Source: Candidatus Polarisedimenticolia bacterium
GTDB taxonomy: Bacteria > Acidobacteriota > Polarisedimenticolia > Gp22-AA2
Direction of reading: 5' to 3'
Assembly: GCA_036001465.1 (NCBI GenBank)
Contig: DASYUH010000053.1
Location: 1-46,339 of the forward strand
Length of the DNA: 46,339 nt
In this document: positions 6,602-36,507 of the stretch, in pieces
Layout: each line of letters starts with the position of its first letter
How positions within the stretch are numbered: the stretch's first letter is position 1
Program-made: the position numbers and the translations under genes
The notes under the pieces: model-generated
The model's input: only the letters and a program-made list of their open reading frames with translations
Told to the model about the DNA's origin: nothing
The model's database searches: none

Positions 6602-8938
6602 TCAGGGTATCCAGTACCAGGCCTTGACGCGGGCCCAGCGGATGGCGGGGCGGAAGATCACGTCCCAGAGCGGGCGCCGGCCGGCGGCGATCTTGGCGTA
6701 GCCGGTCATGTCGGACTTGAGGAGGCCGTCGGGGTTCGGGACCTCGGTCACCACGCGCAGGACGCGGGTCGAGGCGCCGGGGATCTGCAGGGCGGCGAGA
6801 TCGGCCGAGTCCTCCTGGACGATCGCGGTGGTCGAGGTCCGTGATGCGGGGGCCGCGACGGGGGCGATGCTCACCACGCGGCCTTCAATCGGGGTATCGT
6901 GCCACGTCCAGGCGATCAGGCGGACGGGCGCCCCGGGCCGGACCTCGCTGACCTCCTCCTCGCTCACTTCCACCTCGGCCCGCACCGTGCGCGCGTCCTC
7001 GATCTCCATCACCAGGTCGCGCTGTCCGGGCTTCAGGTACATGCCGGAGACCAGCTCGACGTCGGGCGTGACGACGCGTCCGGCGATGGGGCTCGACAGC
7101 GTGGTGCTTTCGAGATCGGCGAGGTAGTCGTCCGCCAGGGCCTGCAGCGCCTTCTGATCGGCGAGGAGCGCACGCACCTGCTCCTCGCGGGACGGGCTGA
7201 TGATCAGGTCGAGGTCGGCGAGCGCCTCCTGCAGCCGGGAGGCGTCCATGTCGCGCTGGTGCAGGGCGTTCTCGTAGTCCTTCTCCGAGACCAGGCCGTC
7301 CTCGAAGAGGCGGGTCACGCGCTCGGCGCGCGGCTTGCTCCACGCCAGGGCCGCCTGGGCCTTGCGCACGCCGGCCCGCACGCGCTCGATCTGCTCCGGC
7401 CTGGCGCCGCTCTCGACGAGAGCCAGCTCCGCCCGCACCCTGTCGACCTGGCCCTGCGCGGCGACCAGGTTCCGCGTCGAGGCCCGCCCGGAGAGGAGGG
7501 CCAGCGGCTGGCCGGCCTCGACCCACTGCCCCTCGCTCACCAGGACCTGCTCGACGACCCCCTCGACCTCGGAGCGGATCTCCGCGCGCTGCCTCGGCAG
7601 GAAGCGGAACGGCCCGCCGGTCTCGTAGGCGACGGGGATGAATCCGAGGGCGGCGATGGCGCCGGCCAGCGCCAGGCGCGCCCCCCAGCGGAGCGGGCCG
7701 CCGCCGCGCGCGCACAGCCAGCGGAACGGGCGCAGCTTCATGAGGACGTGGAACAGCGGCTTCTGGGCGAAGTAGACCGCCACCAGGATCGTGGCGATCG
7801 CGCCGGCCCCTTCGTACGCCGGCGTGAGCTGGCTCCAGAACATCCACAGCACGACCCCCAGGTGCAGGAAGGCGTAGAAGAACGTGAGGGCCCCGTAGAG
7901 CAGGAACCAGCGTTTCTCGCGCCGCGTGAGGATCTCGGGGAGGGGCCGCCTGAGCGTCCACGAGCCGAGGATGGCGAGCGAGCGCTCGCGCAGGCGCGGC
8001 ACCCCGATGATGCTGACGAGGAGAAGGTAGCCGTCCATCTGGACGAGCGGGTTGGCCCCGAAGAGCAGGAGACCCATCCCGGCGGCGAACGACATCGACA
8101 GCCAGAAGAGGTTGGCCGCGGAACCGGGGGCGGTCAGCCACCAGCCGATCGTCCCCACTCCCCAGACCAGGAGCTGGTAGAAGATGCCGGAGAAGATCGC
8201 CCAGCGGCGCTTCTCCTTCCCGGCGACCCAGATGATCTCCCCCCAGTCGCAGTACAGGGCGGGCATGACGTAGTAGAGAAGCCCCAGCCCGATTCCGGAG
8301 ACCTGCCCGCCGCAGCGCTTGCACATGATGCCGTGCACCAGCGCCCGCGGGCTCTGGACCACGAAGCACGACAGCGCCATGGTGAGGGCGACGAACCCGG
8401 GCGACCAGTGGAGCCAGACGGCATGGGTGTAGGCGCCGAAGCGGAGCGCCAGGATGACGGAGGAGGCGGCGAGCGCGGCGGCCCCGGCGTACTGCGCCGG
8501 GCGGCTGAACAGCCACCCGAGGCGGCGGCCGAGGGCCGCCAGGAAACGGTCTCCCTTCATCAGCCTGATCCGGGCGAGCGGCAGGAAGACCTCGGGGTCG
8601 AGGATCTCGGCGAAGGTGCGTCGCCGCTGCCGGGCGCTCACGTCGGCCAGGAGCCCCTGATCGGCCAGCTGGCCCAGGAACACCTCGAAGTCCTTCTCGC
8701 GGAGCGGCGCCCCGAACTTCTCGCCGTAGAGGGCGTAGATGTCGTCGAGGGACGTCCGGCCGTCCAGCTTCTCGCACAGGAAGGCGCCCGCCTCGCCGCA
8801 CTCGAACACGAGGAGGGTCTTCGGGTCGCGGACGAAGTGCTGCGCGGGCATCTCCCCCCTGGCCGGCCAGGAGAAATGCTCCACGTCGCTCCTCAGTCGG
8901 GGCAGCCCCTCCGCGAACCCTTCATCTCGGCCGCTCAT
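6602..8938 (-). CDS. PqqD-like / inactive M50-like membrane domain / HlyD fusion protein
   Basis: The 778-residue product ends the operon. Residues about 20-115 resemble PqqD-type winged-helix binding domains. Residues 140-450 form a multi-span membrane domain organised like M50 (site-2) peptidases. The zinc motif HExxH is replaced by HGIMC at 202-206, although the second M50 signature NPLVQMDG (296-303) is kept, so peptidase activity is unlikely. From about 455 follows an HlyD/RND-type periplasmic adaptor with a biotinyl-lipoyl hairpin, a coiled coil and a beta-barrel, ending WYWIP. This C-terminal half is homologous to the HlyD gene at 35284-36507. The ATG overlaps the TPR stop (ATGA). I infer a role in exporting the cluster product; the partner ATPase is not in the window. 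Confidence 0.82.
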   Translation of the reverse strand: MSGRDEGFAEGLPRLRSDVEHFSWPARGEMPAQHFVRDPKTLLVFECGEAGAFLCEKLDGRTSLDDIYALYGEKFGAPLREKDFEVFLGQLADQGLLADVSARQRRRTFAEILDPEVFLPLARIRLMKGDRFLAALGRRLGWLFSRPAQYAGAAALAASSVILALRFGAYTHAVWLHWSPGFVALTMALSCFVVQSPRALVHGIMCKRCGGQVSGIGLGLLYYVMPALYCDWGEIIWVAGKEKRRWAIFSGIFYQLLVWGVGTIGWWLTAPGSAANLFWLSMSFAAGMGLLLFGANPLVQMDGYLLLVSIIGVPRLRERSLAILGSWTLRRPLPEILTRREKRWFLLYGALTFFYAFLHLGVVLWMFWSQLTPAYEGAGAIATILVAVYFAQKPLFHVLMKLRPFRWLCARGGGPLRWGARLALAGAIAALGFIPVAYETGGPFRFLPRQRAEIRSEVEGVVEQVLVSEGQWVEAGQPLALLSGRASTRNLVAAQGQVDRVRAELALVESGARPEQIERVRAGVRKAQAALAWSKPRAERVTRLFEDGLVSEKDYENALHQRDMDASRLQEALADLDLIISPSREEQVRALLADQKALQALADDYLADLESTTLSSPIAGRVVTPDVELVSGMYLKPGQRDLVMEIEDARTVRAEVEVSEEEVSEVRPGAPVRLIAWTWHDTPIEGRVVSIAPVAAPASRTSTTAIVQEDSADLAALQIPGASTRVLRVVTEVPNPDGLLKSDMTGYAKIAAGRRPLWDVIFRPAIRWARVKAWYWIP

Positions 8939-10071
8939 CCGACCTCGACCTTCGCCAGGCGTTCCTTCGCGGCCTCGAGGCCGGGCTCGATCTCGAGCGC
9001 CTTGCGGTAGGCCGCGGCCGCGCTCCGGGCGTCGTTCAGCGCCCGGAAGGCATCCCCCAGGTCGAGGTGCGCCGCCGCCTTGCGGGCGTTGATCCGGATC
9101 GATGCGTGGTACTCGGCGATGGCGCGCGTGTAGTCCGCCTGCTGCGCGTGGGCGTTCCCCAGCCGCCGGTGGGCCTCGGCGTAGAGCCGGTTGTGCCGGA
9201 TCGCTTCCTGGAAGGCGGCGATCGCCTCGGCGGGCCGGTCGCGCGCCAGGTGCAGGTTGCCGATCCGGAGATGGACGCCGGCGCGGTTCGGCTTGAGGCG
9301 CAGCGCCTCCTGGTACGCCGCCAGGGCCCCGGCGTATTTCCCCTGCTCGGCATGCAGATCGCCGATCCTCAGGCGGGCCACGACCAGGGTGGGGCGGATG
9401 GCCAGCGCGGCCTCGAACTCGGCGATCGCCTCGGCGTGCCTCCTGCCCGAGGCCAGCAGGTCTCCGAGCTGCACGTGCGCCGTCGCGAGCTGCGGGTTCG
9501 TCTGCAGCGCCCCCTCGTACGCCTGGAAGGCCTCGGCGTCCTGGCCCATGGCCAGGTGGGCCCGGCCGAGGCGGAACGAGGCGAGGAGGAAATCGGGCTT
9601 CAGGCGGAGCGTTTCCCTGAACTCCTCGGCCGCCTCGACGTGGCGCTTCTGGGCCAGATAGACGTTCCCCAGGGTGAAGTGGACGAAGGGGCGGTCCGGG
9701 TTCTGCCGCAGGACCAGGAGAAACTCCTCCGCGGCCTCGTCCAGGCGCTTCTCCTGGAGGTGGATGAGTCCGAGACAGTAGTGGGCCTCGGCCAGGTCGG
9801 GATTGTGCTCCAGGGCCGCGGCGTAGCACGCGGCGGCGCGGTCCCCCTGCCTCTGCCTCAGGTAGACGTTTCCGAGACCGAAGTGCGCCATGGCGGAGTC
9901 GGGCTTCTCCTCGAGGGCCGCCTCGAACTCCCGGATCGCCTCGGCGTACTTCTTCTGCTTCAGATACAGGTTGCCGATGACGATGCGCGTCTCGGGTCCC
10001 TTCCCCATGGGGCGAAGCCGCGGGATCGGCGGCTCGCCGGGTTCGTTCGTCTCGTCCGAATCGGGTCGCAT
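8935..10071 (-). CDS. TPR-repeat protein
   Basis: After a short charged, proline-rich start, almost the whole protein (378 residues from this start) is tandem 34-residue tetratricopeptide repeats, about ten in number. The TPR pattern (G/A at 8, A at 20, P at 32) is clear, with units such as AEAIREFEAALEEKPDSAMA. There is no signal peptide, so it is likely a cytoplasmic scaffold, perhaps bringing synthases or tailoring enzymes to the downstream membrane protein it is coupled to by ATGA. I chose ATG 10071; an in-frame TTG at 10083 would add four residues but has no better ribosome site. Confidence 0.85.
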   Translation of the reverse strand: MRPDSDETNEPGEPPIPRLRPMGKGPETRIVIGNLYLKQKKYAEAIREFEAALEEKPDSAMAHFGLGNVYLRQRQGDRAAACYAAALEHNPDLAEAHYCLGLIHLQEKRLDEAAEEFLLVLRQNPDRPFVHFTLGNVYLAQKRHVEAAEEFRETLRLKPDFLLASFRLGRAHLAMGQDAEAFQAYEGALQTNPQLATAHVQLGDLLASGRRHAEAIAEFEAALAIRPTLVVARLRIGDLHAEQGKYAGALAAYQEALRLKPNRAGVHLRIGNLHLARDRPAEAIAAFQEAIRHNRLYAEAHRRLGNAHAQQADYTRAIAEYHASIRINARKAAAHLDLGDAFRALNDARSAAAAYRKALEIEPGLEAAKERLAKVEVG

Positions 10072-10087
10072 CGCTATTCTCAAAGCC

Positions 10088-11050
10088 CTACGGCATCGGG
10101 TGTTCGGCGAAGAACTTCAACATCACGTCGTTCGAGATGTCCTTGGTCGTCTTGCCGATGTACCAGGTCATGACCGGCTTGCCGCCCGGCCAGGAATGGC
10201 CGCCCCCCTCGATGCGGCAGAGCCCGACCGCGGTGCCGTCGGCGCAGCGGTCGTACACCTCGCAGGAGACCTCTCCCTTGTTGTAGAGCGGCCGGTGGTC
10301 CTGCGAGCAGCGGTCGATCTTCAGCCAGGTCTGCAGGAACTCCTCCACCGAGGGGAAGGGGTGCCTGGCGCCGGCCCCCTTGAAGTCCCCGCCCCCCTTG
10401 TAGGGGACGAACTTGTCCCCCGTGCCGTGGTAGATGAGGACCGAGACCGGGCGCTTCGGCGTGCAGGTGGAGTCCATCATCGCCCCCGAGATCGGGGCGA
10501 TGGCGGCGATCTTGTCGGACAGGTCGCACGCCAGGTTGTTGGCGAACATGCCGCCGTTCGAGATGCCGGTGGCGTACACCCTCTTCGGGTCGACGCACCC
10601 CGTCCCGACCAGCTCGTCGATCAGGGCCGACATGAACTCGATGTCCGGCGATCCCTTCTCCATCGCCAGCCCGCAGCACTCCGCGGCGTTCCAGGTCCCG
10701 CCGATGAGGCCTTTCATTCCCGAGGGGTAGGCGGCGATGAACCCGTTCGCGTCCGCCGCCGGGTCCATCATGGAAAATCCCTTCACGTTCGGGCCGGACC
10801 CGGCGCCGCCGTGCAGGGTGATCACCATCGGCCGCGCCCTGCCCGCGCCGGACGGCGGCACGTGGAGGACGTACTCGCGCTTCTTCCCCTTCACCATGAT
10901 GGTCCGGTTGCTGTCCCCCGGCTTGAGGGTGCACTCGCCCCGGGCGGGCGGCGCCTCGGGGGGCGCGGACGGACGGGCATAGGTGCAGACGGCGAACAGG
11001 CAGAGCGGCAGGGCGACGAGAGGGCCCGCGATGGTGGACGGAAGTCTCAA
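10088..11050 (-). CDS. Secreted PHB-depolymerase/feruloyl-esterase-like hydrolase (LpqC family)
   Basis: This is an alpha/beta hydrolase of 320 residues with signal peptide MRLPSTIAGPLVALPLC... The triad is visible as Ser164 in GISNGG, Asp212 in GTGDKFVP and His285 in GGGHSWPGG, with an HGG oxyanion segment at 80-82. Several cysteines suggest disulfides in the periplasm. The family cleaves esters of polyhydroxyalkanoates or feruloylated polysaccharides; here it may trim or release an exported lipid. I chose TTG 11050 because GAGGAGGAGG lies 5-6 nt upstream and gives a clean signal peptide. The longer GTG start at 11086 would overlap the SDR gene and bury it. Confidence 0.82.
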   Translation of the reverse strand: MRLPSTIAGPLVALPLCLFAVCTYARPSAPPEAPPARGECTLKPGDSNRTIMVKGKKREYVLHVPPSGAGRARPMVITLHGGAGSGPNVKGFSMMDPAADANGFIAAYPSGMKGLIGGTWNAAECCGLAMEKGSPDIEFMSALIDELVGTGCVDPKRVYATGISNGGMFANNLACDLSDKIAAIAPISGAMMDSTCTPKRPVSVLIYHGTGDKFVPYKGGGDFKGAGARHPFPSVEEFLQTWLKIDRCSQDHRPLYNKGEVSCEVYDRCADGTAVGLCRIEGGGHSWPGGKPVMTWYIGKTTKDISNDVMLKFFAEHPMP

Positions 11051-11063
11051 GTGGTCCTCCTCC

Positions 11064-11816
11064 TCATGTCGTGGAGCGCCGGGCACGGGACGGCGCGATC
11101 ACGGGATTGAGCAGCCACGTGTCTTCGGGCAAGGCCACAAGATACAGGATGAAGTCGGCGACGCGCTCCGCCGACAGCATGTCCCTGGGCCGGAAGATGG
11201 GGCCGTTCTGGGCCAGGATCGGAGTGTCCACGACCTCGGGGAGGACCGACTGCACGCGGATGCCGTACGGACGGACCTCCTCCGCCAGGCTCTCGGACAG
11301 CCCGATGACGCCGAACTTGGAGGCGCAGTACGCCGAGTCGCAGGCGACCCCCTTGCGCCCCGACATGGAGGACAGCGTGATGATGTTGCCGCGCCTCTGC
11401 TTCTGCATGACCGGAAGGACGGCGCGGATGGTCAGGAACATGCCGGTGAGGTTCGTCTCGATCACCCGGTCCCAGGCGTCCGCGGAGGTGTCGGCGAGCG
11501 TCTGCGGCTTGCCCGGCACGCCGCGCAGGATGCCGGCGCTCGCCACCAGGATGTCGATGCGGCCGAAGCGCTCGAGGGCCTCGTCCCGCATGGCGTTCAC
11601 CTGGTCTTCCCGCCGCACGTCCACGGCCCGGCCGAAAACCGCCGCCCCCGGGCGCCCGGCCAAAAGGCCTCGGACGGTCTCCGCGGTGCGCTCCGGGCTC
11701 ACGTCGGCCACCAGGACGGAGGCCCCCTCGCGCACGAGACGCGACGCGACCGCCAGCCCGATGCCGCTGGCGCCACCCGTGACGATCGCCGCCTGTCCCT
11801 CGAGACGCCCGCTCAC
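11064..11816 (-). CDS. Short-chain dehydrogenase/reductase (SDR 1)
   Basis: A classical SDR of 250 residues: TGGASGIG nucleotide site near 14-21, VDV acidic turn, ASAG, Ser in SSMSG and YCASK catalytic Tyr/Lys. It should oxidise or reduce a hydroxyl/keto group with NAD(P)(H). The C-terminus (PEDTWLLNPVIAPSR) matches that of the neighbouring SDR 2, so the pair arose by duplication. The GTG start overlaps the SDR 2 stop by 4 nt (GTGA). Likely a tailoring step on the synthase product. Confidence 0.85.
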   Translation of the reverse strand: MSGRLEGQAAIVTGGASGIGLAVASRLVREGASVLVADVSPERTAETVRGLLAGRPGAAVFGRAVDVRREDQVNAMRDEALERFGRIDILVASAGILRGVPGKPQTLADTSADAWDRVIETNLTGMFLTIRAVLPVMQKQRRGNIITLSSMSGRKGVACDSAYCASKFGVIGLSESLAEEVRPYGIRVQSVLPEVVDTPILAQNGPIFRPRDMLSAERVADFILYLVALPEDTWLLNPVIAPSRARRSTT

Positions 11817-12664
11817 GCGACCGGCTCCTCGCCCCGTCCGATCGAGGCCCCGGGGCCGGGGGCCCGGAAGGCGGGCCGGCGGTGGCTGCGCAGGGGAACG
11901 ATGACCGGGTTGTGCAGCACCGTGTCGCGCGGCAGCAGGACGGTGTACAGGATGAGCTCGGTGACCCGCTCGACCGGCATGGTCTTCTCGGGCGGGGGGA
12001 CCGGCAGGTTCTGGTCCCACATCGCCGTCGACGCCGGGCCGGGACAGATGGTCGTCACGCGGATGCCGGAGCGCCGCACCTCTTCGGACAGCGATTCGCT
12101 CAGGCCGATGATGCCGAACTTCGAGGCGCAGTAGGCGGCGTCGTAGGCGAAGCCGCGCAACCCGGAGGTGGACGAGACATTGATGATGTCGCCGCTCTTC
12201 TGGCTCGTCATCGCCGGCAGGACGGCGCGGTTCGACAGGAACGTGCCGCGCAGGTTGGTGCGCAGGATGGCGTTCCAGTCGAGAAGCGTGAGCTCGGTCG
12301 CCGTCTTCGGGCCCTTGCCGCTTCTCAGGATGCCGGCCGAGGCGAGCAGGATGTCGATGCGGCCGAAGCGCTCGAGCACGCGATCGGCCATCCGCGCCAT
12401 GTCCTCTTCGCTCCCCACGTCGAGCACCAGGGACAGGTGCCCGGCTCCGGGCGCCGTGCCGGCCTTCCCGGCCTCCGCGATCGTCTCCTCCAGGCGGGAG
12501 GCGCTGCGCCCGACGGCCACCACCGAGGCCCCCGCGCGCGCGAAGGCGACGGCGGCCGAGCGGCCGATGCCGCTGCTGCCGCCGGTCACCACGGCGACCT
12601 TGCCGAGCAGGGGCGGCCCGGCGTCCGGGACCGTGGACGGCGGGGGGCCCTCAGGCGGCGTCAT
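11813..12664 (-). CDS. Short-chain dehydrogenase/reductase (SDR 2)
   Basis: A 283-residue SDR with TGGSSGIG near 27-34, LASAGIL, SSTSG and YCASK, plus a proline-rich N-terminal extension and a charged C-terminal tail not shared with SDR 1. The cores of SDR 1 and SDR 2 are clearly similar (GRIDILxASAGILR, IGLSESLxEEVR, LHNPVI/LLNPVI). The ATG lies 14 nt inside the end of the upstream methyltransferase gene. Role inferred as ketoreduction or alcohol oxidation in the cluster pathway; the cofactor cannot be decided from the sequence. Confidence 0.85.
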   Translation of the reverse strand: MTPPEGPPPSTVPDAGPPLLGKVAVVTGGSSGIGRSAAVAFARAGASVVAVGRSASRLEETIAEAGKAGTAPGAGHLSLVLDVGSEEDMARMADRVLERFGRIDILLASAGILRSGKGPKTATELTLLDWNAILRTNLRGTFLSNRAVLPAMTSQKSGDIINVSSTSGLRGFAYDAAYCASKFGIIGLSESLSEEVRRSGIRVTTICPGPASTAMWDQNLPVPPPEKTMPVERVTELILYTVLLPRDTVLHNPVIVPLRSHRRPAFRAPGPGASIGRGEEPVA

Positions 12665-13583
12665 GCGATCCTCCCGGCCCGGTCGCCTCGCCGTTCCGCA
12701 CGGCGATCACCTCGAGCCACAGCCGCGGGACCGTCTGCCGGCCGGTGGCTTCGAGGACCGGGGCGACCGATCGCGCCAGCGCCTCGCTCGCCAGGGGGAC
12801 GGGGAAGCCGCTCAGGAGGGCGCCGGCGCATCCTGCATAGGCGCCGATCGCCTCGAACGAGCTGCGGGTCATGACCGCGGTGCGCCGGTTCACGCTCCTT
12901 ATGGCGAACCCGCGGCCCGTCAGGGCGGCGGTGTACTCGTCGGGGGAGGGCCAGCGGCGCAGGAAAGGGGCGTCCCCCCGCCCGCGGGCGCGCGTGAGGC
13001 CCGGCCGCCCCTGGCTCCGCTCCTCGGCGTCCCGGCGCAGGACATACTTGAGCGCCTCCTTGACCCACTCCTCGTAGAAGCGCTCCGTTCCGGGAAGGAA
13101 CGTCCCGGCGAAGAAGGAGGTGTTGAAGGCGAACAGGCCGCCGGGGCGCAGGACGCGATGGACCTCGTCGAGGAGCGGCCCCGGCTCCTTGAAGTAGTGG
13201 ATGGCGTTGCCCATCAGGACCACGTCGGCGTCCGCGGACAGGACCGGCAGGCGGTCCGCCGAAGCGTTGACCAGCCGCACCCGGTCCGCGCGCCTCGGCT
13301 CGACGGGGGCTTCGAGCAGCCGGCGGCGCGCGTGGGCCAGGGACGCCCGCGACAGGTCCACGCCGAGGATCCGATCCGGCCCGCGAAGCTCGTCGAGCAG
13401 CAGCTCGGTCATGGTCCCGGTGCCGCACGCCAGGTCGAGGACACGGATCCCGCCGGAGCGCGGCACGCCGCCGAGCTCCAGGCTCCGGACGAAATCCCGG
13501 TTCAGCTCGACGTACGACGGCTCCCGGGAGAACGGGTCGTACGACGTGTCGATCGTCCCCGGACCGGCGGCCGCGTTGTCCAT
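12651..13583 (-). CDS. Class I SAM-dependent methyltransferase (distinct type)
   Basis: The 310-residue protein has motif I VLDLACGTGT near 48-57, an acidic GVDL after strand 2, NAIHYFKEPG for motif IV and a VLRPGG turn, so it is a Rossmann-type methyltransferase of the UbiE/Methyltransf_11 kind. It differs from the three related methyltransferases upstream: it lacks their YGYW/ACEN N-terminal block and has its own C-terminal helical part. Start ATG shares its A with the preceding TGA stop. Substrate unknown. Confidence 0.83.
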   Translation of the reverse strand: MDNAAAGPGTIDTSYDPFSREPSYVELNRDFVRSLELGGVPRSGGIRVLDLACGTGTMTELLLDELRGPDRILGVDLSRASLAHARRRLLEAPVEPRRADRVRLVNASADRLPVLSADADVVLMGNAIHYFKEPGPLLDEVHRVLRPGGLFAFNTSFFAGTFLPGTERFYEEWVKEALKYVLRRDAEERSQGRPGLTRARGRGDAPFLRRWPSPDEYTAALTGRGFAIRSVNRRTAVMTRSSFEAIGAYAGCAGALLSGFPVPLASEALARSVAPVLEATGRQTVPRLWLEVIAVRNGEATGPGGSHDAA

Positions 13584-18400: not shown

Positions 18401-18401
18401 C

Positions 18402-21590: not shown

Positions 21591-21913
21591 GCCGTGGCCC
21601 CCGCGCCGAGCTGCTTCTCGAGGAAGGCGGCGATCTGGGACACCTTGAGGTCGTCGACATAGTGGCCGTCGACCATCAGGAGCTCCTCGAAAGGCATCCC
21701 CTTCTTCCCGAACCGCTCCTCGACGGCCACGATCAGCATGACGATGTCGATCGACTCGAACGTCAGGTTGTTCATCAGGAACGTCTCGGGGCCGATGCGA
21801 CCCGAGAAGCCCGTGTCCCACTCCTTGGTCATCTCCTCGAGGATGTCCACGACGCCGTCCAGGACGGTTCCCCGCGGGCTGGCGGCGGCGCCTGCCTGCT
21901 GACTCTCCATCAT
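21587..21913 (-). CDS. Discrete acyl carrier protein-like protein
   Basis: At 108 residues, with helix-loop-helix character, the centre reads NNLTFESIDIVMLIVAVEERFG, where carrier proteins have D-S-L/I before helix 2. Ser54 is the expected phosphopantetheine site although the preceding Asp is Glu. The end (DLKVSQIAAFLEKQL) matches carrier helix 4. It is unlike the two carrier domains inside PKS1, so it may serve a separate loading, transfer or tailoring step. ATG 21913 overlaps the PKS2 stop (ATGA) and is followed at once by a second ATG. Confidence 0.8.
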   Translation of the reverse strand: MMESQQAGAAASPRGTVLDGVVDILEEMTKEWDTGFSGRIGPETFLMNNLTFESIDIVMLIVAVEERFGKKGMPFEELLMVDGHYVDDLKVSQIAAFLEKQLGAGATA

Positions 21914-26877: not shown

Positions 26878-29800
26878 CAGGCGCGCCCCCGCGGTCCGGC
26901 GAGGCGGTTCAGCTCGCGGCTGCAGGAAAGCTCCATGTCCTCGAGCGCCCCGAGCAGGCGCCCGCTCCCGTCCAGAAAGGCGATCTGGATGTCGAGCACG
27001 TGGCCGCCGGCGCGCGCCTGCGAGCGGAACTCGCAGCGGATCGGGGAGCCGTTGAACGGGGCGTAGCGACGGAAGCTCCGGAAGCGCGCCGGCAGCGGCG
27101 TCATGTCGTAGTGCGAGCGCGCGTACAGGATGCCGAGCTGGAAGGCGCTGTCCACCACCACCGGATCGATCAGCCAGTCCCCCGTGCCGGCGCCGCGCAC
27201 GCAGCGGGCGGGCGTCGAGGGGAGGACCGTGCCCGAGATCCCCTCCTCTCCCAGGCCCTCGATGGTGCGGATTCCCTGGAACAGGGGGCCGTGGAACAGA
27301 AGGCTCTCGTACGCCGATTCCACGCTCGTCGGGTAGGGACGCGGGTCGCGCAGGGGCGCGGGGGCCCCGGAGGCGGGCGGCGGCAGCCGGTCCCCCAGGA
27401 GGACGGTGGCCTGGTAGAAGGGCCGCCCCGACTCGGGATCGGCGATGACGGCGTCCACCGACAGCTCGAGCCTCTCCTGGCCGGGCTGCGTGGCGGCGCG
27501 CGCCCGGATGACGATCGCCCGCGGCCCGTCCTTCAGGACGACGCCCTGGAGGACGCGGAACTCCTGGATGGCCTGGACCTCCCATTCGGGCCAGCCATGG
27601 CGGACGATCTCGGCGAACAGCTCCATCGCCACGGCCGCCGGGAGGACCGGCCTGCCGTCCATCTGGTGGTCGAGCAGGAACAGGTCGGTCGCGGGATCGA
27701 GAAGGCGCCGGACCTCGATTCCGCCGCCGTCCGAGGCCCGGGCCTCCAGGCCGTCGAGCAGCGGCAGCGCCATGCGTGCCGCCCGGGCGGTCACGGGAGC
27801 GGACGCCCCCGCGTACGCGCGCCACGGCCCGTCCCCCAGGACCACGGCAACCTCCCCCTTGGCCCCCCGCTCGATCTCCTGGATGAACGCGGGGCGGCCG
27901 CCGGCGGGGGAGACCAGCTGCACACCCCGGGCGGCGAAGCGCTCCTGGACCTCGGCGGAGGCCATGCCGGACCGCCAGGGGCCCCAGTTGATCGACAGCA
28001 CCCGCCCGGGCCAGAGACGGTCGAGATGGAGCGCCAGGGCGTTGAGCGTTTCGTTCGCGGCCGCGTAATCGCACTGCCCGGCGTTGCCGAAGCGTCCCGC
28101 GACCGAGGCGAACAGGACGAAGAGCTTGAGATCTTCGGGCCGCAGTCGGCGGGCCAGCGTGAGCGCCCCGTCCACCTTGGTGCCGAACACCCGATCGAAC
28201 GACGCGGGGGTCTTGTCCTCGATCCGCTTGTCCTCGATGACGCCGGCGCCGTGGATGACGGCGTCGATCCGGCCGTAGTCCCGGTACAGGTCGTCGATGA
28301 GCCGCCCGAACGCCTGGTCGTCACGCGCGTCGACCGGCTCGTAGCGCACCGTGGCCCCGGCCCGTCGCATCGACTCGAGACGGGCGCGGATCTCCCGGTC
28401 CCGGAGGATGCGCTTGAGGTCCGTCTCGATCGCCGCCGGCGTCTGCGCCGTGCCGGAGCGGCGCGCCTCGTCGATCAGGGCGGCCTTGAGGTCGGAAGAC
28501 GAGGCGGCGCCCGAGGTTGCGGCAGGCTCGGCGGTCTCGGGAAGAGGAGTCCGTCCGGTCAGGACCAGCGTCGGCCGGTAGCGCGCGGCGAGCTCCTCCG
28601 CGATCTCGGCGGTGATGCCGCGCGCTCCTCCGGTGATCAGGACCACCCAGGACGAATCGGGCCCGGGCTCCCGGGCGGCATCGCCGGCGAGAGCGGCGGG
28701 CAGCGGGCGGACCGCGATCCGGCGGGACCCCCTGTACCCGACCTCCACCTCGTCGTCCCGGGCGGCCAGCTCCTGGAGCAGGAGGGCCGCACGCTCGTGA
28801 GGCGTCGAGGGGGCGTCGAAGTCGACCGTCTTGCAGCGCGTCTCCGGCCATTCGCGGGCGATCGTCTTGATCAGCCCGGTGAGGCCTCCCTGCCCGGGGA
28901 AGAAGGGGTCCGCCGGCTTCCGATCGAGACCGCAGGCGCCGCCCATCGCGGTGGCGACCAGGAGCCGCCCGGCGTCGCCGGCGTCCCGGAGGTCGGCGCT
29001 CGCCGCCCGCGCCAGCTCGAACAGGCCGCGGATCTCGCGATCGATCGCCGGCTTCCAGGCCGCCGGATCGGTGTCGGCTCCGGCCGCCCCGGCCGCGAGC
29101 GGCCGGAGGTGCACCACCGTCCCGATCGGGCCGTGCTGCGCCCGCGCTTCGGCGAGCGCTTCGGCGATTCCCGATTCATCGGCGGGGTCCGTGATGAGGG
29201 CCCGTCCGCCGCGCTCCTGGATCATCGCCGCCAGGGACCGGGCCGTCCCGAGCCCGTCGTCGGTGATCAGGACCGTGCGGTCCCCCGGCGCATACGGCGG
29301 CCCGCCGGCCGCGGGCAGCTCGACCGGGCGGAGCAGGAAGCGCGGAACGTCCTGTGCCTCCCTCCGCCCGGCGCTCCCCGCCGGGCGGGCCGGGGCCACG
29401 GAGTCAGCGGCCGGTGCAGAAGCTGCCGGCACGGAGGCCGGCGCGGACGCAATCGGCAGCGGCGCGACCGGGGCGGTCCCTGCGGCGGCCGCCAGGTCGA
29501 GGATGCCGCGGAGCGTCCGGATGCGCGACAGGCTCTCCATCGAATCCTGGAGCGCGTGCTGCAGATCGGCAGGGCAGGCGCGCTGGAAGGCGCCGAGGAT
29601 CTCGACCCGCTTGATCGAGTCGATGCCCAGATCGGCCTCGATGTTGAGGTCGAGATCGAGCATCTCGGGCGGATAGCCGGTGCGATCCCCGACGATGGCC
29701 AGGAGGCGCCGCTTCATCTCCTCCGCCGACAACGAGGCCGTGTTCGCGGGGCCCGCCGGCGGCGCGGCAGGGGCAGCGGCGGTCCCCGCGGCGGCCGCGA

Positions 29801-32800
29801 GGTCGAGGATGCCGCGCAGCGTCCGGATGCGCGACAGGCTCTCCATCGAATCCTGCAGCCTGTGCTGCAGGTCGGCGGGGCAGGCGCGCTGGAAGGCGCC
29901 GAGGATCTCGACCCGCTTGATCGAATCGATGCCGAGATCGGCCTCGATGTTGAGGTCGAGATCGAGCATCTCGGGCGGGTAGCCGGTGCGATCGCCGACG
30001 ATGGTCAGGAGGCGCCGCTTCAAATCTTCAGGCGGCAGGGACGCCGTGACGACGGCGGCGACCGGCAGGGTCGCAGCCTCGGCGGCCGGTCTGCTCGAGG
30101 CGGACGGGGCCGGGAGCGATTCGGCCGGCGCGCCGATCGCGGCGGCTCCCTTCCCTTCGAGAAAGGCCTGCATCACGTCCTTCTGGGTGTCGAGGAAGCG
30201 GCTCATGAGCTGCTGGAACTGCAGCACCACCTGCGCCGTGGCGTCCTCGCCGGTTGCGGCTTCGGTCGCGGCGGCGGGGGTTGCGGCCGGAGCGTCCGCG
30301 AAGGGGGTCTCCGGGGCAGCCGGCTCCGGAGCGGGCGGCTGCGGCAGGGAGACAGGCGTCAGGCGACGAGGCGGCTGGCCCAGGGGGCGCGCCGAGGCGC
30401 CGTTGACCATCCAGGTGGCCGGAGAGAGCGGCAGGGCGGCGGCGTCCGATTCGAGGTCTTTCAGGTCCAGGTCGCGCACCGTCCGGCCGCGGAACAAACC
30501 CTCCAGGTCGATCGACACGGCGTGCGCCGCCAGCTGCCCGAGGAGGTGCAGGATCTGCACCGGCCCGGGACGTCCCGGGACGTCGGACGCGACCGCCAGG
30601 TGCGGGCGCTCGCTCAGGATCTGCTGCGTCAGGCCGGTCAGGACGTTCTTCGGCCCGACCTCGACGAACAGCCGCGCGCCGGCCTGGTGCATCGCCTCGA
30701 CCTCGTCGGCGAAGCGCACCGGCTCGACCAGGTGCTCGGCCAGGAGCGCGGCGACCGCCTTCGGATCGCGCGGGTAGGGGGTTGCGGTCGAATTGGAGAA
30801 GACCTCCATCCGCGGCGCGGTGAAGGTCACCTCGGAGAGGACGGCGGCGAGCCGGTCCCGGGCGGGCGCGATGACCGGTGAGTGGAAGGCGCAGGCCACC
30901 GGCAGGGGGCGGGCCTCGATGCCGTCCTCCTTGAGGCGATCGATCGCCTGACGCACCCCCTCGCGCGTCCCGGAAATCACCGTCTGGCGCGGGGCGTTCA
31001 GGTTGGCGATCCAGACGTCCTTGATCGGCCGCAGGGCCTCGGCGATCCGGGCGGGAGTCTCGGCGATGGCCGCCATGGTGCCGAGGTCGTCCTTCGCCGT
31101 CTCGAGGATCGAGCGCCCGCGGGCCTCCGACAGCCGCGCCAGGGTCTCCTCGTCGAACACGCCGGCGGCGCACAGGGCGGCGTACTCGCCGTAGCTGTGT
31201 CCGGCGACCATGTCGGCGCGCACGCCGAACAGGTGGAGCAGGCGCAGCGCCGCCAGGCCCGCCGCCCCCAGGGCCGGCTGGGCGACGTCGGTCCGCGTCA
31301 GCGCCTCCCGGCGGGCGCGCTCCTCGTCCGGCGTGAACGCCGGGGGCGGAAACACGTAGCGACCGAGCGGCAGCGGGAGCCGGCCGGCGAGCGCGGCCTC
31401 GGCCCGCTCGAACTCGAGGCGCACCTCGGGGAAGCGGACCGCGAGGTCGCGCAGCATGTCCGGATACTGCGAGCCCTGACCGGGGAACAGGAAGGCGATC
31501 CGCCCGCCCCTGCCGAACGGCGCCTCGGTGAAATACGTCCCCGACGGATCGAAGATCGACGTCGCGCCGGCGCGCAGGCGCTCGAGCGCGGCCTGGAGCT
31601 TCCGATCCAGCTCCTCGGCCGACGAGGCGATGACGGCGAGCGTGAGCGTGGGGTCCGATCTCTCGGCGGCGCGCCGCCAGAGCGTCCAGGACAGGTCGGA
31701 CATCTGCGGGCGGGCGCCGCGCCCCAGGGCGGCCTGGACCCTCCCGACCCCGTCCTCGATCTCCCTCCGCGACGGGCCGCGCCACAGGAAGATCTCGGCC
31801 GCGGAGCGCTCCCGGAGCGCGGGCCTGTCGGGAGCGATCTCGTCGGCGTGCTCCTCGAGGACGGCATGGAAGTTCGTGCCCCCGAATCCGAACGCCGACA
31901 CGCCGGCACGGCGGGCGTGCCCCGCCGCCGGCGACAGCCACGGGCGCAGCTCGGAGTTGACGTAGAACGGACTCTCCTCGAAGCGTGCCGTGGCGTTCGG
32001 CCTCTCCACATTCAATGTAGGCGGCAGGACCTTGTGGTACAGCGCCAGCGCGACCTTCGCCATGCCGGCCACGCCGGCGGTGCACTTGGTGTGGCCGATC
32101 ATCGACTTGACCGACCCGATGGCGCACGACTGGCGGGAGGCTCCCGCCGCCTCGAAGACGCGCTTCAGGGTCGTCGCCTCGGCCTGGTCGCCGGCGACCG
32201 TGCCGGTGCCGTGCGCTTCGATCAGCCCGACGGTGGCGGGGGAGAACCCGGCCTTGGCGTAGGCGCGATCGAGGGCCCGCGCCTGCCCCTCGGGCCGCGG
32301 CGCCGTGAGGCCCTTGTCGCGCCCGTCGCTCGAGGCGGCGATCGACTTGATCACGGCGTAGATCCGGTCGCCGTCGCGCTCGGCGTCGGCCAGGCGCTTC
32401 AGCACCAGGATCGCGAGCCCTTCGCTGATGACGATGCCGTCGGCGGTCTCGTCGAACGTGCGGCAGCGGCCGCGCGGCGAGTGGGCGCGCGTCTTGCTGA
32501 AGCACAGGAACATGAACGGGTTCTGCGCCGTGTCGATGCCGCCGGCCAGGGCCATGTCGCTGCTGCCGGTCTCCAGGTCCTTGACCGCCAGGTAGAGGGC
32601 CGCGAGCGACGAGGCGCAGGCGGCGTCCACGGTGAAATTGGCGCCGCCGAGATCGAAGCGGTTCGCCACGCGCCCCGCGGCAACGTTGAGCAGGATGCCG
32701 GGGAAGGAGTCCTCGGTCCACTCCGGGAGGCGCGCCATGAGCTCGGGCATGGGGGCGTCGAAGAAGCTCGGGAGCTGCGACCGGAAGGCGTACAGGTTCC

Positions 32801-35273
32801 CCAATTCGCTGATGCCGCCGCCGGCCCCCAGGATGACCGAGGTGCGCTCCCGCGGGAAGGCGCGGTCGAGATAGCCGGCGTCCTCGAGGGCGGCGCGCGC
32901 CACCTCGAGCGTCAGGAGCTGGACCGGCTCGATCGAGGACAGGGAATTGGGCGGCATGCCGTAGCGCATCGGGTCGAACGGCACGTCGTCCACGAAGCCG
33001 CCCCACTTCGAGTAGACCCGGTCGCGCACCTTCGGATCGGGGTCGAAGTAGCGCGTCCAGTCCCAGCGGTCCTCCGGGACCTCGGTGATCGCGTCCACCT
33101 TGTCGAGGATGTTCTCCCAGTACGCGGACAGTCCCGGCGCCTTGGGCAGGAGGCAGGCCATGCCGACGATGGCAACGTCCGACGGCTTCTCGCGGGTGGC
33201 GGCCCCGGCCGTGACGACGGACGGAGCGGCACGTTCCGCCAGGCGCGCGGTGGAGGCGACCGACACGTCCCGGTGCAGCGCCTCGATGGTGCAGGTGGCG
33301 TCGCGCAGGGCGGCCACCTGGCCGATCATGAACATCCCCTGGACCTGCTGCTCCTCGGGAGTCAGCGGCTGGAGCTTCGGGGCGCCCGGGTCGCGGCCGA
33401 AGCCGGGGTGGCGATCGACCCCCTTGGAGGCGATGCGCAGTCGTCCCAGATTGAGCGCCTCGAGGGCGTTGCGGATCTCCTCGGCCGGGCGGCCCTCGGC
33501 CGTCAACCGGCGGCGCTCGCTCTCGAAGGCGGCGGCGAACGGCGAATCGACGCAGCGCGTCGAGTGCCCGGGTCCGGTCTCCAGGAGGACGGTGCGCCGG
33601 CAGCGCACGGCCGACTCCTGGAATCCGGGGACGATGGCGCCCGACGCGACCGCCTCCTCGGTGAACAGGTAGGCCGTGCCGAGGAGCACGCCGACGCGCG
33701 CGCCGCGCTCGGCCAGGGGGGCCGCCAGGGCCGCCACCATGGAGGCCGACAGGGCGTCGTGGATCCCGGCCGCGAACAGCACGTGGCACTCCGCCAGCTG
33801 GTCGGCGGGGAGCGACTCGAGAAGCGTGTCGACCATCGAGTTCCAGAGCACGAAGGACGAGCGCGGGCCGACGTGGCCGCCGCACTCGCGCCCCTCGAAC
33901 ACGAAGCGGCGCGAGCCCCCTTCCAGGAAGAGCTTCAGAAGGCCCGGCGAGGGGACGTGCAGGTAGGTCGCGATGCCGTCGCGCTCGAGCCGCCTCGCCT
34001 GGTCGGGGCGCCCGCCGGCGATCAGCGCGAAGGGAGGATGGAACTCGTCGATCGCGTCGAGCTGTTCCTGGCGGAGCTCGATCGGCACGAAGCCGAGGAT
34101 GCCCACGCCCCAGGGCCTGTCCCCCAGCACGCGGCGGGTCTCCTCGAGCAGCGCGCGCACCTCGGCCTTCCGCATCAGGGCCAGCGCCAGGAACGGCAGG
34201 CCGCCTCCCTTCGCGACCTCGAGGGCGAACGGCGCCGTGTCGCTCACGCGCGTCATCGGTCCCTGCACGATCGGATAGCGGGTCCCGTGCGAGCGGGCCA
34301 GGGGGGAACCCAGCTCGAGGGGTTTGAGCGCCACCGCCGCCTTGACATGCGACTCGATCGCCCGGCGCATCCCTTCGACGACCCCGCCGACCGTCCGGAA
34401 GCTCTTCGCGAGAGGCGCGGCGAACGCCGCGTCCTGGCCGAGGACCATCACGCGGCGCTTCGGGTCGTCCCATCCGGCGCGCTCCGCGATCCCCCGCCGC
34501 CAGTCCGCCAGTCGCCCGGCGCTTGCCGGCCCGCCATCCTGAAGGACGCGCTCGACCCCGCGCAGGTCGTCCGACGGGGCGTGGCCGGATCGGTCGTACA
34601 GGCGCCAGGTCTCTCCGAGGGCCGAGCCGAAGAGGGTCGTCTCGCTGCCGTCCATGCGGGCGATCGCCTCGCGCGCGGCGCGCCCCAGGGGCGATTCGCG
34701 CGTCAGGAGAAGCTGCGCGTCGAGCGCGATGCCCGCGGCGCCGCCCGCGCAGGCGGCCGCGGCGGTGTGCAGCCCGATGCCGCCCTGCGCGAAGACCGGC
34801 AGGGAGCCGCGCGTCAGGAGCCGCTGCAGCAGGATGAAGGTCGTCTCGTCGCCCACGCGGCCGGCCGCCTCGTGTCCCTTGGCGATGAGGCCGTCCACGC
34901 CGAGATCGGCGCCCAGAGCGGCCTCCTCCGTGGACACCGCCTCCAGGAGGACCTCGATGCCGGCGGCGCGCCAGGCGCCGATGCGCGGGCCCAGGAGCGC
35001 CGGGTCGCCGGGGGTCAGGATGACGGTGCGCACCCGGTCGGGGAGGGCGCGCGCCATGGCATCGAGAAAGGGGATGCGCGTCCCGTCGAGCTTCACGCCG
35101 CAGGCCGCGCGGGCCAGGCGCTCCAGCCGGCCGAGGGCGAGGCGGGCACCCGGCTCGTCGAAGCACAGCTCGAGATCGAGAACGCCCAGGGCGCCGGCGC
35201 GGGACGCCGCGGCGGCGACCGCGGGGTCGGCCGGCCCCGGAGGTGTCAGGCAGAGAATGCGGAACTCGCGCAT
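26877..35273 (-). CDS. Type I PKS/PUFA-synthase-like protein 1 (ER-KS-AT-ACP-ACP-KR-DH)
   Basis: The 2798-residue synthase opens with a degenerate NPD-like half (1-290) and a full FMN-dependent nitropropane-dioxygenase/PfaD-type reductase (325-610, catalytic His467 in ECGGHVG). Then come KS 695-1145 (Cys886, His1021, His1061), AT 1255-1580 (Ser1360 in GHSYGEY, His1464, malonyl-like AFHS), a helix RFLDTQKDVMQAFL (1692-1705), two nearly identical ACPs (Ser1784, Ser1886, 102 residues apart), a pseudo-KR plus KR 2000-2490 (TGGARGI at 2214-2220, Ser2390, Tyr2403) with the long insertion seen in PUFA-type KRs, and DH 2525-2780 (His2536, Asp2708). It probably catalyses iterative chain extension with full or partial reduction. 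No clear ribosome site; likely coupled to HlyD 10 nt upstream. Confidence 0.92.
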   Translation of the reverse strand: MREFRILCLTPPGPADPAVAAAASRAGALGVLDLELCFDEPGARLALGRLERLARAACGVKLDGTRIPFLDAMARALPDRVRTVILTPGDPALLGPRIGAWRAAGIEVLLEAVSTEEAALGADLGVDGLIAKGHEAAGRVGDETTFILLQRLLTRGSLPVFAQGGIGLHTAAAACAGGAAGIALDAQLLLTRESPLGRAAREAIARMDGSETTLFGSALGETWRLYDRSGHAPSDDLRGVERVLQDGGPASAGRLADWRRGIAERAGWDDPKRRVMVLGQDAAFAAPLAKSFRTVGGVVEGMRRAIESHVKAAVALKPLELGSPLARSHGTRYPIVQGPMTRVSDTAPFALEVAKGGGLPFLALALMRKAEVRALLEETRRVLGDRPWGVGILGFVPIELRQEQLDAIDEFHPPFALIAGGRPDQARRLERDGIATYLHVPSPGLLKLFLEGGSRRFVFEGRECGGHVGPRSSFVLWNSMVDTLLESLPADQLAECHVLFAAGIHDALSASMVAALAAPLAERGARVGVLLGTAYLFTEEAVASGAIVPGFQESAVRCRRTVLLETGPGHSTRCVDSPFAAAFESERRRLTAEGRPAEEIRNALEALNLGRLRIASKGVDRHPGFGRDPGAPKLQPLTPEEQQVQGMFMIGQVAALRDATCTIEALHRDVSVASTARLAERAAPSVVTAGAATREKPSDVAIVGMACLLPKAPGLSAYWENILDKVDAITEVPEDRWDWTRYFDPDPKVRDRVYSKWGGFVDDVPFDPMRYGMPPNSLSSIEPVQLLTLEVARAALEDAGYLDRAFPRERTSVILGAGGGISELGNLYAFRSQLPSFFDAPMPELMARLPEWTEDSFPGILLNVAAGRVANRFDLGGANFTVDAACASSLAALYLAVKDLETGSSDMALAGGIDTAQNPFMFLCFSKTRAHSPRGRCRTFDETADGIVISEGLAILVLKRLADAERDGDRIYAVIKSIAASSDGRDKGLTAPRPEGQARALDRAYAKAGFSPATVGLIEAHGTGTVAGDQAEATTLKRVFEAAGASRQSCAIGSVKSMIGHTKCTAGVAGMAKVALALYHKVLPPTLNVERPNATARFEESPFYVNSELRPWLSPAAGHARRAGVSAFGFGGTNFHAVLEEHADEIAPDRPALRERSAAEIFLWRGPSRREIEDGVGRVQAALGRGARPQMSDLSWTLWRRAAERSDPTLTLAVIASSAEELDRKLQAALERLRAGATSIFDPSGTYFTEAPFGRGGRIAFLFPGQGSQYPDMLRDLAVRFPEVRLEFERAEAALAGRLPLPLGRYVFPPPAFTPDEERARREALTRTDVAQPALGAAGLAALRLLHLFGVRADMVAGHSYGEYAALCAAGVFDEETLARLSEARGRSILETAKDDLGTMAAIAETPARIAEALRPIKDVWIANLNAPRQTVISGTREGVRQAIDRLKEDGIEARPLPVACAFHSPVIAPARDRLAAVLSEVTFTAPRMEVFSNSTATPYPRDPKAVAALLAEHLVEPVRFADEVEAMHQAGARLFVEVGPKNVLTGLTQQILSERPHLAVASDVPGRPGPVQILHLLGQLAAHAVSIDLEGLFRGRTVRDLDLKDLESDAAALPLSPATWMVNGASARPLGQPPRRLTPVSLPQPPAPEPAAPETPFADAPAATPAAATEAATGEDATAQVVLQFQQLMSRFLDTQKDVMQAFLEGKGAAAIGAPAESLPAPSASSRPAAEAATLPVAAVVTASLPPEDLKRRLLTIVGDRTGYPPEMLDLDLNIEADLGIDSIKRVEILGAFQRACPADLQHRLQDSMESLSRIRTLRGILDLAAAAGTAAAPAAPPAGPANTASLSAEEMKRRLLAIVGDRTGYPPEMLDLDLNIEADLGIDSIKRVEILGAFQRACPADLQHALQDSMESLSRIRTLRGILDLAAAAGTAPVAPLPIASAPASVPAASAPAADSVAPARPAGSAGRREAQDVPRFLLRPVELPAAGGPPYAPGDRTVLITDDGLGTARSLAAMIQERGGRALITDPADESGIAEALAEARAQHGPIGTVVHLRPLAAGAAGADTDPAAWKPAIDREIRGLFELARAASADLRDAGDAGRLLVATAMGGACGLDRKPADPFFPGQGGLTGLIKTIAREWPETRCKTVDFDAPSTPHERAALLLQELAARDDEVEVGYRGSRRIAVRPLPAALAGDAAREPGPDSSWVVLITGGARGITAEIAEELAARYRPTLVLTGRTPLPETAEPAATSGAASSSDLKAALIDEARRSGTAQTPAAIETDLKRILRDREIRARLESMRRAGATVRYEPVDARDDQAFGRLIDDLYRDYGRIDAVIHGAGVIEDKRIEDKTPASFDRVFGTKVDGALTLARRLRPEDLKLFVLFASVAGRFGNAGQCDYAAANETLNALALHLDRLWPGRVLSINWGPWRSGMASAEVQERFAARGVQLVSPAGGRPAFIQEIERGAKGEVAVVLGDGPWRAYAGASAPVTARAARMALPLLDGLEARASDGGGIEVRRLLDPATDLFLLDHQMDGRPVLPAAVAMELFAEIVRHGWPEWEVQAIQEFRVLQGVVLKDGPRAIVIRARAATQPGQERLELSVDAVIADPESGRPFYQATVLLGDRLPPPASGAPAPLRDPRPYPTSVESAYESLLFHGPLFQGIRTIEGLGEEGISGTVLPSTPARCVRGAGTGDWLIDPVVVDSAFQLGILYARSHYDMTPLPARFRSFRRYAPFNGSPIRCEFRSQARAGGHVLDIQIAFLDGSGRLLGALEDMELSCSRELNRLAGPRGRA
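29476..29742 (-). repeat. ACP-coding repeat, copy 2 (C-terminal ACP of PKS1)
   Basis: This segment repeats at 29782-30048 with a 306-bp period and only scattered third-position differences. It encodes the second carrier domain with the D-S-I site at Ser1886. Confidence 0.85.
29782..30048 (-). repeat. ACP-coding repeat, copy 1 (N-terminal ACP of PKS1)
   Basis: Direct repeat partner of 29476-29742, offset 306 bp (102 codons). It encodes the first carrier domain with Ser1784. The high DNA identity implies recent duplication or ongoing gene conversion. Confidence 0.85.
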
Positions 35274-35283
35274 ATCAGAAGGC

Positions 35284-36507
35284 TCAGGGAATCCAGTACC
35301 AGACTTCCACCTTGAACCAGCGGATGATGGGACGGAACAGGACGTCCCAGACCGGACGCCTGCCCGTGGCGATCTTGGCGTACCCCGTCATGTCGGTCTT
35401 GAGGACGCCGTCCGGGTTCGGGATCTCGGTGATCACGCGCACGGCCCGCTCCGGAGAGCCGGACAGCGAGACCTGCGTCCCCCCCTGCCCCGCTCCGACG
35501 ACGGTCGCCGTGCTCGATTCGGCGGCGTTGCTCGCCGCGACCGGCGCGATGCTGACGACCTTGCCGTGGAAGGTGACTTCGTGGAAGGCCCACGGGACGA
35601 CCTTCACCCCGGCCCCCACGCTCACGGCCCCCGCGTCCTCTTCGGGCACCTCCACCTCGGCGCGGATGGTCCGGGAGTCTTCGATCTGCACGACCAGGTC
35701 GCGCTGCCCCGGCTTCAGGTAGGTCCCGGCCATCTCCTCGATGCGCGGGGTGACCACCCAGCCCGCGATCGGGCTCTTCAGCGTCGTGCGCTGCACGTCG
35801 GTCCGGTAGTTGTCCACCAGCGCCTGCAGGCTGCGGATCTCCGCCTGGACCGCCTTGACCTGCTCGGGGCGCGCGCCGCTCGTGACGACCTTCAGGTTCG
35901 CCTTCGCCTCCTCGAGCATCGCCTTGTCGACGTCGCGCTGCCTCAGGGCGTTCTCGTACTCCTGCTCGGACACCAGCTTCTGCTCGAACAGCTGGGCGAA
36001 GCGATCGGCGCGCGGCCCGCTCCAGGCGAGGCTCGTCTCGGCGGTGCGCACGTCGGCCCGCGCCCGCTCGATCTCCTCCCGCCGGGCCCCGGCCTTCAGG
36101 AGCTGCAGGTCCGCCTTGGCCTCGTCGAGCTTGGCCTGGGCCGCCTTCAGGTTCTTTTGATGGGTGCGGCCCGAGAGCGTGGCGAGGCTCTGGTTCTTCT
36201 CGACCCACTGGCCTTCCTTCACCAGGATCGTGTCCACCAGGCCTTCGACTTCGGAGCGCACCTCGACGCGCTTCGCCGGCAGGAAGCGGAACGGGCCGCC
36301 GGTCTGGTACGGGTAGGGGAGGAACAGGGCCCACAGGATGACGGCGACGATCCCCAGGCGGATGGTCCAGGCGAGCACCGTCCTCCACCACGAGCGCTTC
36401 TTCTGCGCGGCCGCTCCCCGGGGATCGCGTGCCGCCCGCCCCTTCGCGTCGGCCGGCGCGGGCGGGACCGACGGCGCCGGACGGGGTCCTGTGGCTGTCT
36501 GGGGCAT
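35284..36507 (-). CDS. HlyD-family membrane fusion protein (first operon gene)
   Basis: A 407-residue periplasmic adaptor: proline/alanine-rich cytoplasmic start, one membrane segment near 44-64, a lipoyl half-motif (RSEVEGLVDTILVKEGQWVEKNQ), a long coiled coil (about 115-245), a second lipoyl half (LKSPIAGWVVTPRI), a beta-barrel and a C-terminal segment ending WYWIP. The region from TGGPFRFLP to the end is homologous to the C-terminal half of the last operon gene (6602-8938). It should link an inner-membrane exporter to the outer membrane. A GGAGG site lies about 9 nt before the ATG. No ABC or RND pump gene is adjacent. Confidence 0.88.
   Translation of the reverse strand: MPQTATGPRPAPSVPPAPADAKGRAARDPRGAAAQKKRSWWRTVLAWTIRLGIVAVILWALFLPYPYQTGGPFRFLPAKRVEVRSEVEGLVDTILVKEGQWVEKNQSLATLSGRTHQKNLKAAQAKLDEAKADLQLLKAGARREEIERARADVRTAETSLAWSGPRADRFAQLFEQKLVSEQEYENALRQRDVDKAMLEEAKANLKVVTSGARPEQVKAVQAEIRSLQALVDNYRTDVQRTTLKSPIAGWVVTPRIEEMAGTYLKPGQRDLVVQIEDSRTIRAEVEVPEEDAGAVSVGAGVKVVPWAFHEVTFHGKVVSIAPVAASNAAESSTATVVGAGQGGTQVSLSGSPERAVRVITEIPNPDGVLKTDMTGYAKIATGRRPVWDVLFRPIIRWFKVEVWYWIP

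Follow-up and report, generated by a model that had tools for sequence, protein, structure and literature searches.

An acidobacterial operon that probably directs the synthesis of a secondary lipid, with a core locus shared by two classes

Introduction

The window considered here, a stretch of 46,339 nucleotides from Candidatus Polarisedimenticolia bacterium, a gp22-type soil acidobacterium, corresponds to contig C53 in a genome of 4.58 Mb (G000). It carries sixteen minus-strand genes in tandem (6602–36507), among which are two large iterative synthases, PKS1 and PKS2. Do these genes form one system, to which class do the synthases belong, and what is the product? Our conclusion is that the operon probably encodes an iterative type I synthase pair of the polyunsaturated fatty acid (PUFA)/heterocyst-glycolipid type, together with genes for tailoring a secondary lipid and for its envelope export.

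Conservation of the core locus

PKS1, PKS2, a free acyl carrier protein (ACP), a phosphodiesterase (PDE) and a beta-propeller protein are linked in a single locus in six genomes of Acidobacteriota, which represent two classes: the genome of the window, G004 (same genus), and G378, G543, G489 and G343, which belong to another class. The gene of an alpha/beta hydrolase (ABH) is present in five of the six, none being found in G343. When the propeller was searched in 396 Acidobacteriota genomes, G378 and G343 matched beyond the genus; G543 and G489 came from a further search within the class of these two. The core proteins of the window and of G004 are 69–80% identical, and the gene order in G004 is that of the window wherever contigs allow (HlyD-PKS1; PKS2-ACP-PDE-ABH-ORF-propeller/methyltransferase-MT1-MT2; TPR-M50/HlyD). 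The order PKS1-PKS2-ACP-PDE-ABH-propeller-short-chain dehydrogenase (SDR) of G489 is also that of the window; SDR genes are present at the locus in G378 and G543 too. The G343 locus lies on two contigs, and its PDE gene crosses the break with an overlap of 30 bases. We note that the PDE gene of G489 (L089:7717-9142) is frameshifted, which may be real or an assembly error.

The co-occurrence of synthase and propeller was counted in one class only, the other class (192 genomes), using as a query the part of PKS2 that comprises the dehydratase (DH) and phosphopantetheinyl transferase (PPTase) domains. Strong matches (E < 1e-70) are found in G378, G543, G489 and G343 only, so that the propeller accompanies such a match in 4/4 genomes and is seen in 0/188 of the others (Fisher p = 1.8e-8, relatedness being ignored). 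In a tree of ketosynthase (KS) domains, one clade (100/98) unites the PKS2 KSs from the window, G004, G378, G543 and G489, and a Streptomyces PKS2 KS is sister to it (99/97). The linkage of the core across two classes and the perfect co-occurrence of PKS2 and the propeller support the view that the core is one system.

A previous sequence-only reading of the window had proposed that all these genes are one system. This is supported for the core, but not as a fixed set for the propeller–methyltransferase fusion, the extra methyltransferases, the orphan gene, TPR and M50/HlyD, which were found in the genus of the window only: BLAST of the related loci did not find the orphan, MT1, MT2, TPR or M50/HlyD genes outside it. 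The same reading had set the PDE, the propeller–methyltransferase and M50/HlyD outside familiar pathways; the PDE and the propeller prove to be core components, but M50/HlyD was found only in the genus. It had also considered that homologous synthases regularly lacking these neighbours would speak against a single system. This is partly the case, because the more distant relatives of PKS1 (40–47%), in Streptomyces, Methylosinus, Beijerinckia, SC52, G070, G138 and G111, have neither PDE nor propeller beside them (all seven, within the stretches read).

Around the core, the partners of the propeller vary. It is fused to a methyltransferase only in the genus of the window. In G378, G543 and G489 the propeller protein starts with a hydrophobic segment and also includes an alpha/beta-hydrolase-like part (confirmed with Pfam in G378 only), and in G343 it has no hydrolase part. 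Outside the genus of the window the propeller would be carried by a secreted protein, mostly in fusion with an alpha/beta hydrolase. The idea that the PHB-like esterase of the window is a homologue of the hydrolase part of the G378 and G489 proteins was rejected, as BLAST does not support it. In place of the orphan, MT1, MT2, TPR and M50/HlyD genes, the G378 cluster has genes for an O-methyltransferase-like protein, a UDP-glycosyltransferase-like protein (confirmed with Pfam; a homologue occupies the same position in G543), a MacB-type permease, an ABC ATPase, a HlyD protein and a transporter.

The two synthases

Gene activities were assigned with Pfam and NCBIfam models. With TIGR02813, the PfaA model, the score of PKS1 is 1285 bits, above the cut-off of 1010, and that of PKS2 only 537.5 bits. 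PKS1 comprises an enoyl reductase (ER, residues ~73–620), a KS (699–1090), an acyltransferase (AT, 1261–1557), a ketoreductase (KR, 2211–2434) and a DH (2512–2787). Its two tandem ACPs are near-identical, with the motif LGIDSIKRVEIL (LGIDSIKR type, which is PUFA-type); with the free ACP they make up the three ACPs of the operon. The catalytic motifs of the KS (DAACASS, EAHGTG, KSMIGH), the AT (GHSYGE), the KR and the DH (HQMDGRPVLP) are intact and the NPD motif is conserved. The TIGR02813 score and the ACP motif support the assignment to the PfaA/heterocyst-glycolipid class that the sequence-only reading had made.

PKS2 consists of a KS (6–411) that retains its active-site Cys, an AT (604–911, GHSTGE), a DH (1104–1388) and a C-terminal PPTase-like domain (~1420–1655). 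Both KS domains of the operon have the Cys and both His motifs, and look active; there is no pair of KS and chain-length factor (CLF), nor a third KS/CLF domain in the operon. The PPTase domain of PKS2, which the sequence-only reading had overlooked, is intact in relatives and degenerate in the window (21910–22680, minus strand). It scores 21.3 bits against the ACPS model, under the cut-off of 25, has the sequences GIVAE and SMSS, and no longer has the Asp of GxDxE or the His of SxSH. The score is 53–59 bits for the corresponding domain of G378, G489, Streptomyces and Methylosinus, and 34.1 for that of G004, which has lost the Glu of GxDxE and the His of SxSH, so that the path of decay differs between the sister genomes. 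The cluster encodes no intact PfaE-like PPTase; a separate PPTase is present elsewhere in the genome (G000:C77).

Phosphodiesterase, propeller and methyltransferases

The PDE belongs to the NPP family, based on its Phosphodiest fold and metal-ligand motifs, with DGATF, SDHGFG and GxH conserved; its best fold matches are Xac NPP and ENPP6. The predicted model of the propeller (mean pLDDT 68) matches unrelated propellers about equally well (virginiamycin lyase, CylK, lectins), and its sequence profile gives weak matches to kelch-like repeats only. A CylK-like alkylation was considered and not accepted, because the match to the CylK fold, one of the top fold matches (Z 26.9, rmsd 3.6, 330 aligned residues), ties with those to unrelated propellers and CylK is absent from the profile search. 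The propeller has no match in plasmid records. In the collection of named genomes its single match, at 79% identity, lies on a contig of a metagenome-assembled genome of gp22 AA3 Acidobacteria. A contig scan with a two-sequence propeller alignment brought up the G004 contig alone; as the scan relied on just two short peptide patterns, it missed distant copies, which were recovered by the later genome searches. In another genome (L078, G160:C100), a distant propeller is flanked on either side by a PDE gene (25%), and no synthase lies close by, so that the PDE–propeller link may exist outside lipid clusters. The methyltransferases of the operon are similar to MitM and to a glucose O-methyltransferase.

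Organisation of the operon

The features are collected in Table 1. The junctions between the sixteen genes are mostly 4-base overlaps, as in the series PKS1, PKS2, ACP and PDE, and the frames are coding-like, with a high GC content at codon position 3. The tight spacing and the gene inventory of the sequence-only reading are thus both recovered: two synthases, three ACPs, four methyltransferase domains, two SDRs, an NPP-type PDE, two alpha/beta hydrolases, a TPR protein and two HlyD-domain proteins. The M50 domain has no HExxH motif, in line with its description as dead in that reading.

Table 1. Features of the operon and of its leader, in window coordinates
Feature	Coordinates	Strand	Evidence
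HlyD-family membrane-fusion/adaptor protein, one N-terminal transmembrane helix (44–62)	35284..36507	-	HlyD_D23 1.3e-16; RND_mfp above cut-off; G004 copy 71% identical
PKS1, NPD/FabK-like ER-KS-AT-ACP-ACP-KR-DH	26877..35273	-	Domain models and motifs
PKS2, KS-AT-DH with C-terminal degenerate PPTase-like domain	21910..26877	-	Domain models, motifs, ACPS model
Free ACP, 108 aa, Ser in LTFESIDIV	21587..21913	-	Weak ACP-model matches; same-locus homologues in G004, G378, G543, G489, G343
NPP-type PDE, alkaline-phosphatase superfamily, no signal peptide	19971..21590	-	Phosphodiest PF01663 2.6e-35; 44–49% in the other class
ABH, GHSFGG, thioesterase/esterase-like	19061..19954	-	Abhydrolase_1 6.3e-34; 36–37% in the other class
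Acidic orphan ORF, 220 aa, no family	18402..19064	-	G004 copy 55% identical
Beta-propeller (~31–500), SAM methyltransferase (~540–680) and C-terminal tail in one protein; start possibly 18310	15467..18400	-	Methyltransf_11 4.7e-23; propeller fold; propeller 30–32% in the other class
MT1, SAM methyltransferase	14395..15462	-	Methyltransf_11 4.4e-25
MT2, SAM methyltransferase	13583..14368	-	Methyltransf_11 6.5e-22
MT3, SAM methyltransferase, group differs	12651..13601	-	Methyltransf_11 9.5e-20
SDR1	11813..12664	-	adh_short 6e-54
SDR2	11064..11816	-	adh_short 1.2e-57
PHB-depolymerase-like esterase; start 11050 or 11086	10088..11050	-	Esterase_PHB 3.9e-6; hydrophobic, signal-like N-terminus
TPR-repeat protein	8935..10071	-	Family models
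PqqD-like/M50-like (HExxH lost)/HlyD fusion	6602..8938	-	PqqD 3e-6; HlyD_D23 2.9e-19; G004 copy 68%
12-bp perfect hairpin, leader/intergenic region ahead of the first gene	36542..36578	-	Stem identical in G004

The leader hairpin is present in both members of the genus, its G004 counterpart (L054:277-313) sharing a conserved 30-base flank. Rfam gives no match in the window, hairpin included, or in the G004 leader, and a scan for sigma70-type promoters upstream of the HlyD gene found nothing. Directly upstream of the operon lies the gene of a 1403-aa protein with MopE-type metal-binding repeats (36641–40852, minus strand), whose 3' end is also upstream of HlyD in G004. The two HlyD proteins, which lie at opposite ends of the operon, have in common an unusual C-terminal tail (RRPxWDVxFRPxIRW...WYWIP), which suggests that they arose by duplication.

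Elsewhere in the genome of the window, a module (L049, G000:C14:112300-117016) contains an APS-kinase-like gene, a second PDE (PDE2, 27%), a glycosyltransferase (GT)-like protein and a methyltransferase related to MT1/MT2. In G004 (L048, G004:C185), the GT-like and methyltransferase orthologues of this module adjoin the end of the operon and are oriented convergently to M50/HlyD.

Proposed pathway and alternatives

The product is likely an exported, O-methylated long-chain lipid, whose chemistry and export we infer as follows. PKS1 and PKS2 would build up the chain from malonyl units on the tandem PUFA-type ACPs, the KR reducing, the DH dehydrating and the N-terminal NPD-type ER carrying out enoyl reduction. 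Given the decay of the PPTase part of PKS2, the conversion to holo-ACPs would fall to the separate PPTase encoded on C77. Transfer or release of the chain would involve the free ACP and the alpha/beta hydrolase, and the PDE would act on an intermediate, cleaving a phosphodiester or pyrophosphate bond; the product itself may contain phosphorus. Tailoring would be the task of the SDRs, for the oxidation state, and of the MitM/RebM-like methyltransferases, for the O-methylation of hydroxyl groups, and the HlyD adaptors would assist the passage of the product into or across the outer envelope.

Several points count against this proposal. The operon of the window encodes neither a glycosyltransferase nor an ABC/RND permease nor a TolC-type protein, so that export is incomplete as encoded. 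The roles given to the PDE and the propeller are guesses, and no product is known for any member of this cluster type, as far as we found. The KS tree was built without HglE or PfaA reference sequences, and G004 is too fragmented for the conservation of MT3, the SDRs and the PHB-like esterase to be assessed there.

That the product is a glycolipid close to the heterocyst glycolipids seems rather unlikely. The GT and the ABC exporter would then be encoded elsewhere, for example in the PDE2–GT–methyltransferase module of C14, and the methyltransferases, which do resemble sugar O-methyltransferases, would act on the sugar. A GT is present in the Streptomyces and Beijerinckia relatives and, alongside HlyD and MacB-type genes, in the G378 cluster (as in G543, at the same place); Methylosinus has an ABC exporter set, and the G004 orthologues of the C14 genes adjoin the end of its operon. 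However, no GT is found in the operon of the window, the C14 protein is GT-like by eye only, without confirmation by a family search, and compared with hgl a CLF is missing and one DH is extra. The absence of CLF also argues against a polyunsaturated or polyene fatty acid destined for membrane phospholipids and not exported, the two HlyD-domain proteins then being neighbours with another job. PKS1 does exceed the PfaA cut-off and the ACPs are PUFA-type, but four methyltransferases and SDRs are unusual in PUFA clusters, and HlyD or ABC exporter genes lie beside some related clusters; we judge this very improbable.

The restriction of conservation in the other class to the core, the remainder being found in the genus of the window only, would be expected if two or more adjacent gene sets had been acquired independently, with the lipid synthase core, from PKS1 to the propeller, on the one hand and a functionally unrelated methyltransferase/TPR/M50-HlyD export set on the other. 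The short overlaps all along the operon, the fusion of propeller and methyltransferase in one protein and the identical order in G004, where contigs allow, make this scenario highly unlikely too. As for the PDE and the propeller, it is a quite doubtful idea that they are a conserved functional pair that acts on the synthase product by a new kind of chemistry, such as a phospho-linked step of release or coupling, and that recombination of the propeller with a methyltransferase or a secreted alpha/beta hydrolase switches the finishing of the product between the inside and the outside of the cell.

Comparison with known systems

Acidobacteriota are abundant in soil, and the locus represents a recurring acidobacterial synthase subtype with fixed companions (phosphodiesterase, propeller, usually alpha/beta hydrolase). 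With these companion genes as markers, soil genomes can be mined for such clusters, and the membership of the pathway becomes a hypothesis open to test. No description of a PKS1-PKS2-ACP-PDE-propeller cluster was found in open-licence papers.

A related locus lies on a plasmid of Streptomyces sp. NBC_00984 (NZ_CP108735.1, PKS1-PKS2-ACP-alpha/beta hydrolase-GT-methyltransferase): the synthases are organised in the same way (PKS1 45%), and a 108-aa ACP and an alpha/beta hydrolase follow in the order of the window, but there is no PDE, propeller or HlyD, and a glycosyltransferase is present. The plasmid loci of Methylosinus sp. C49 and Beijerinckia indica have an NPD-KS-AT-ACP-KR protein (43–47%), a DH-PPTase protein and a HlyD-type adaptor with ABC genes. 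They differ from the operon by their KASIII-type proteins, by a GT that is present or near, by a DH-PPTase protein devoid of the KS-AT part of PKS2, and by the absence of PDE, propeller and methyltransferases.

The cyanobacterial heterocyst glycolipid (hgl) islands share with the operon a related class of iterative synthases and a HlyD-type protein, and the related G378 cluster has GT and ABC genes as they do; the operon of the window, in contrast, lacks the HglC-type KS-CLF-AT, the GT and the ABC permease, and has the PDE, the propeller and the methyltransferases in addition (PMC11804610, PMC3098273). Where an hgl island has a GT and an ABC exporter with a membrane-fusion protein in the locus, this operon has only HlyD-type proteins.

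As regards Pfa (PfaA–E), the operon has a similar KS-AT-tandem ACP-KR core that exceeds the PfaA cut-off, an NPD-type ER, DHs and a PPTase-derived domain (PMC3098273). It is unlike Pfa in that the ER forms the N-terminal part of the PfaA-like protein, there is no CLF, the second KS keeps its Cys, the PPTase is degenerate, and PDE, propeller, ABH, SDRs and methyltransferases are attached. Twenty types of pfa-like secondary-lipid clusters (Types A–T) are described there, and no type in the text of that paper, figures aside, combines an N-terminal ER on PfaA, a second synthase without CLF, a PDE and a propeller (PMC3098273). Because of this, we place the operon among the Pfa/heterocyst-glycolipid "secondary lipid" synthases, as a new subtype.

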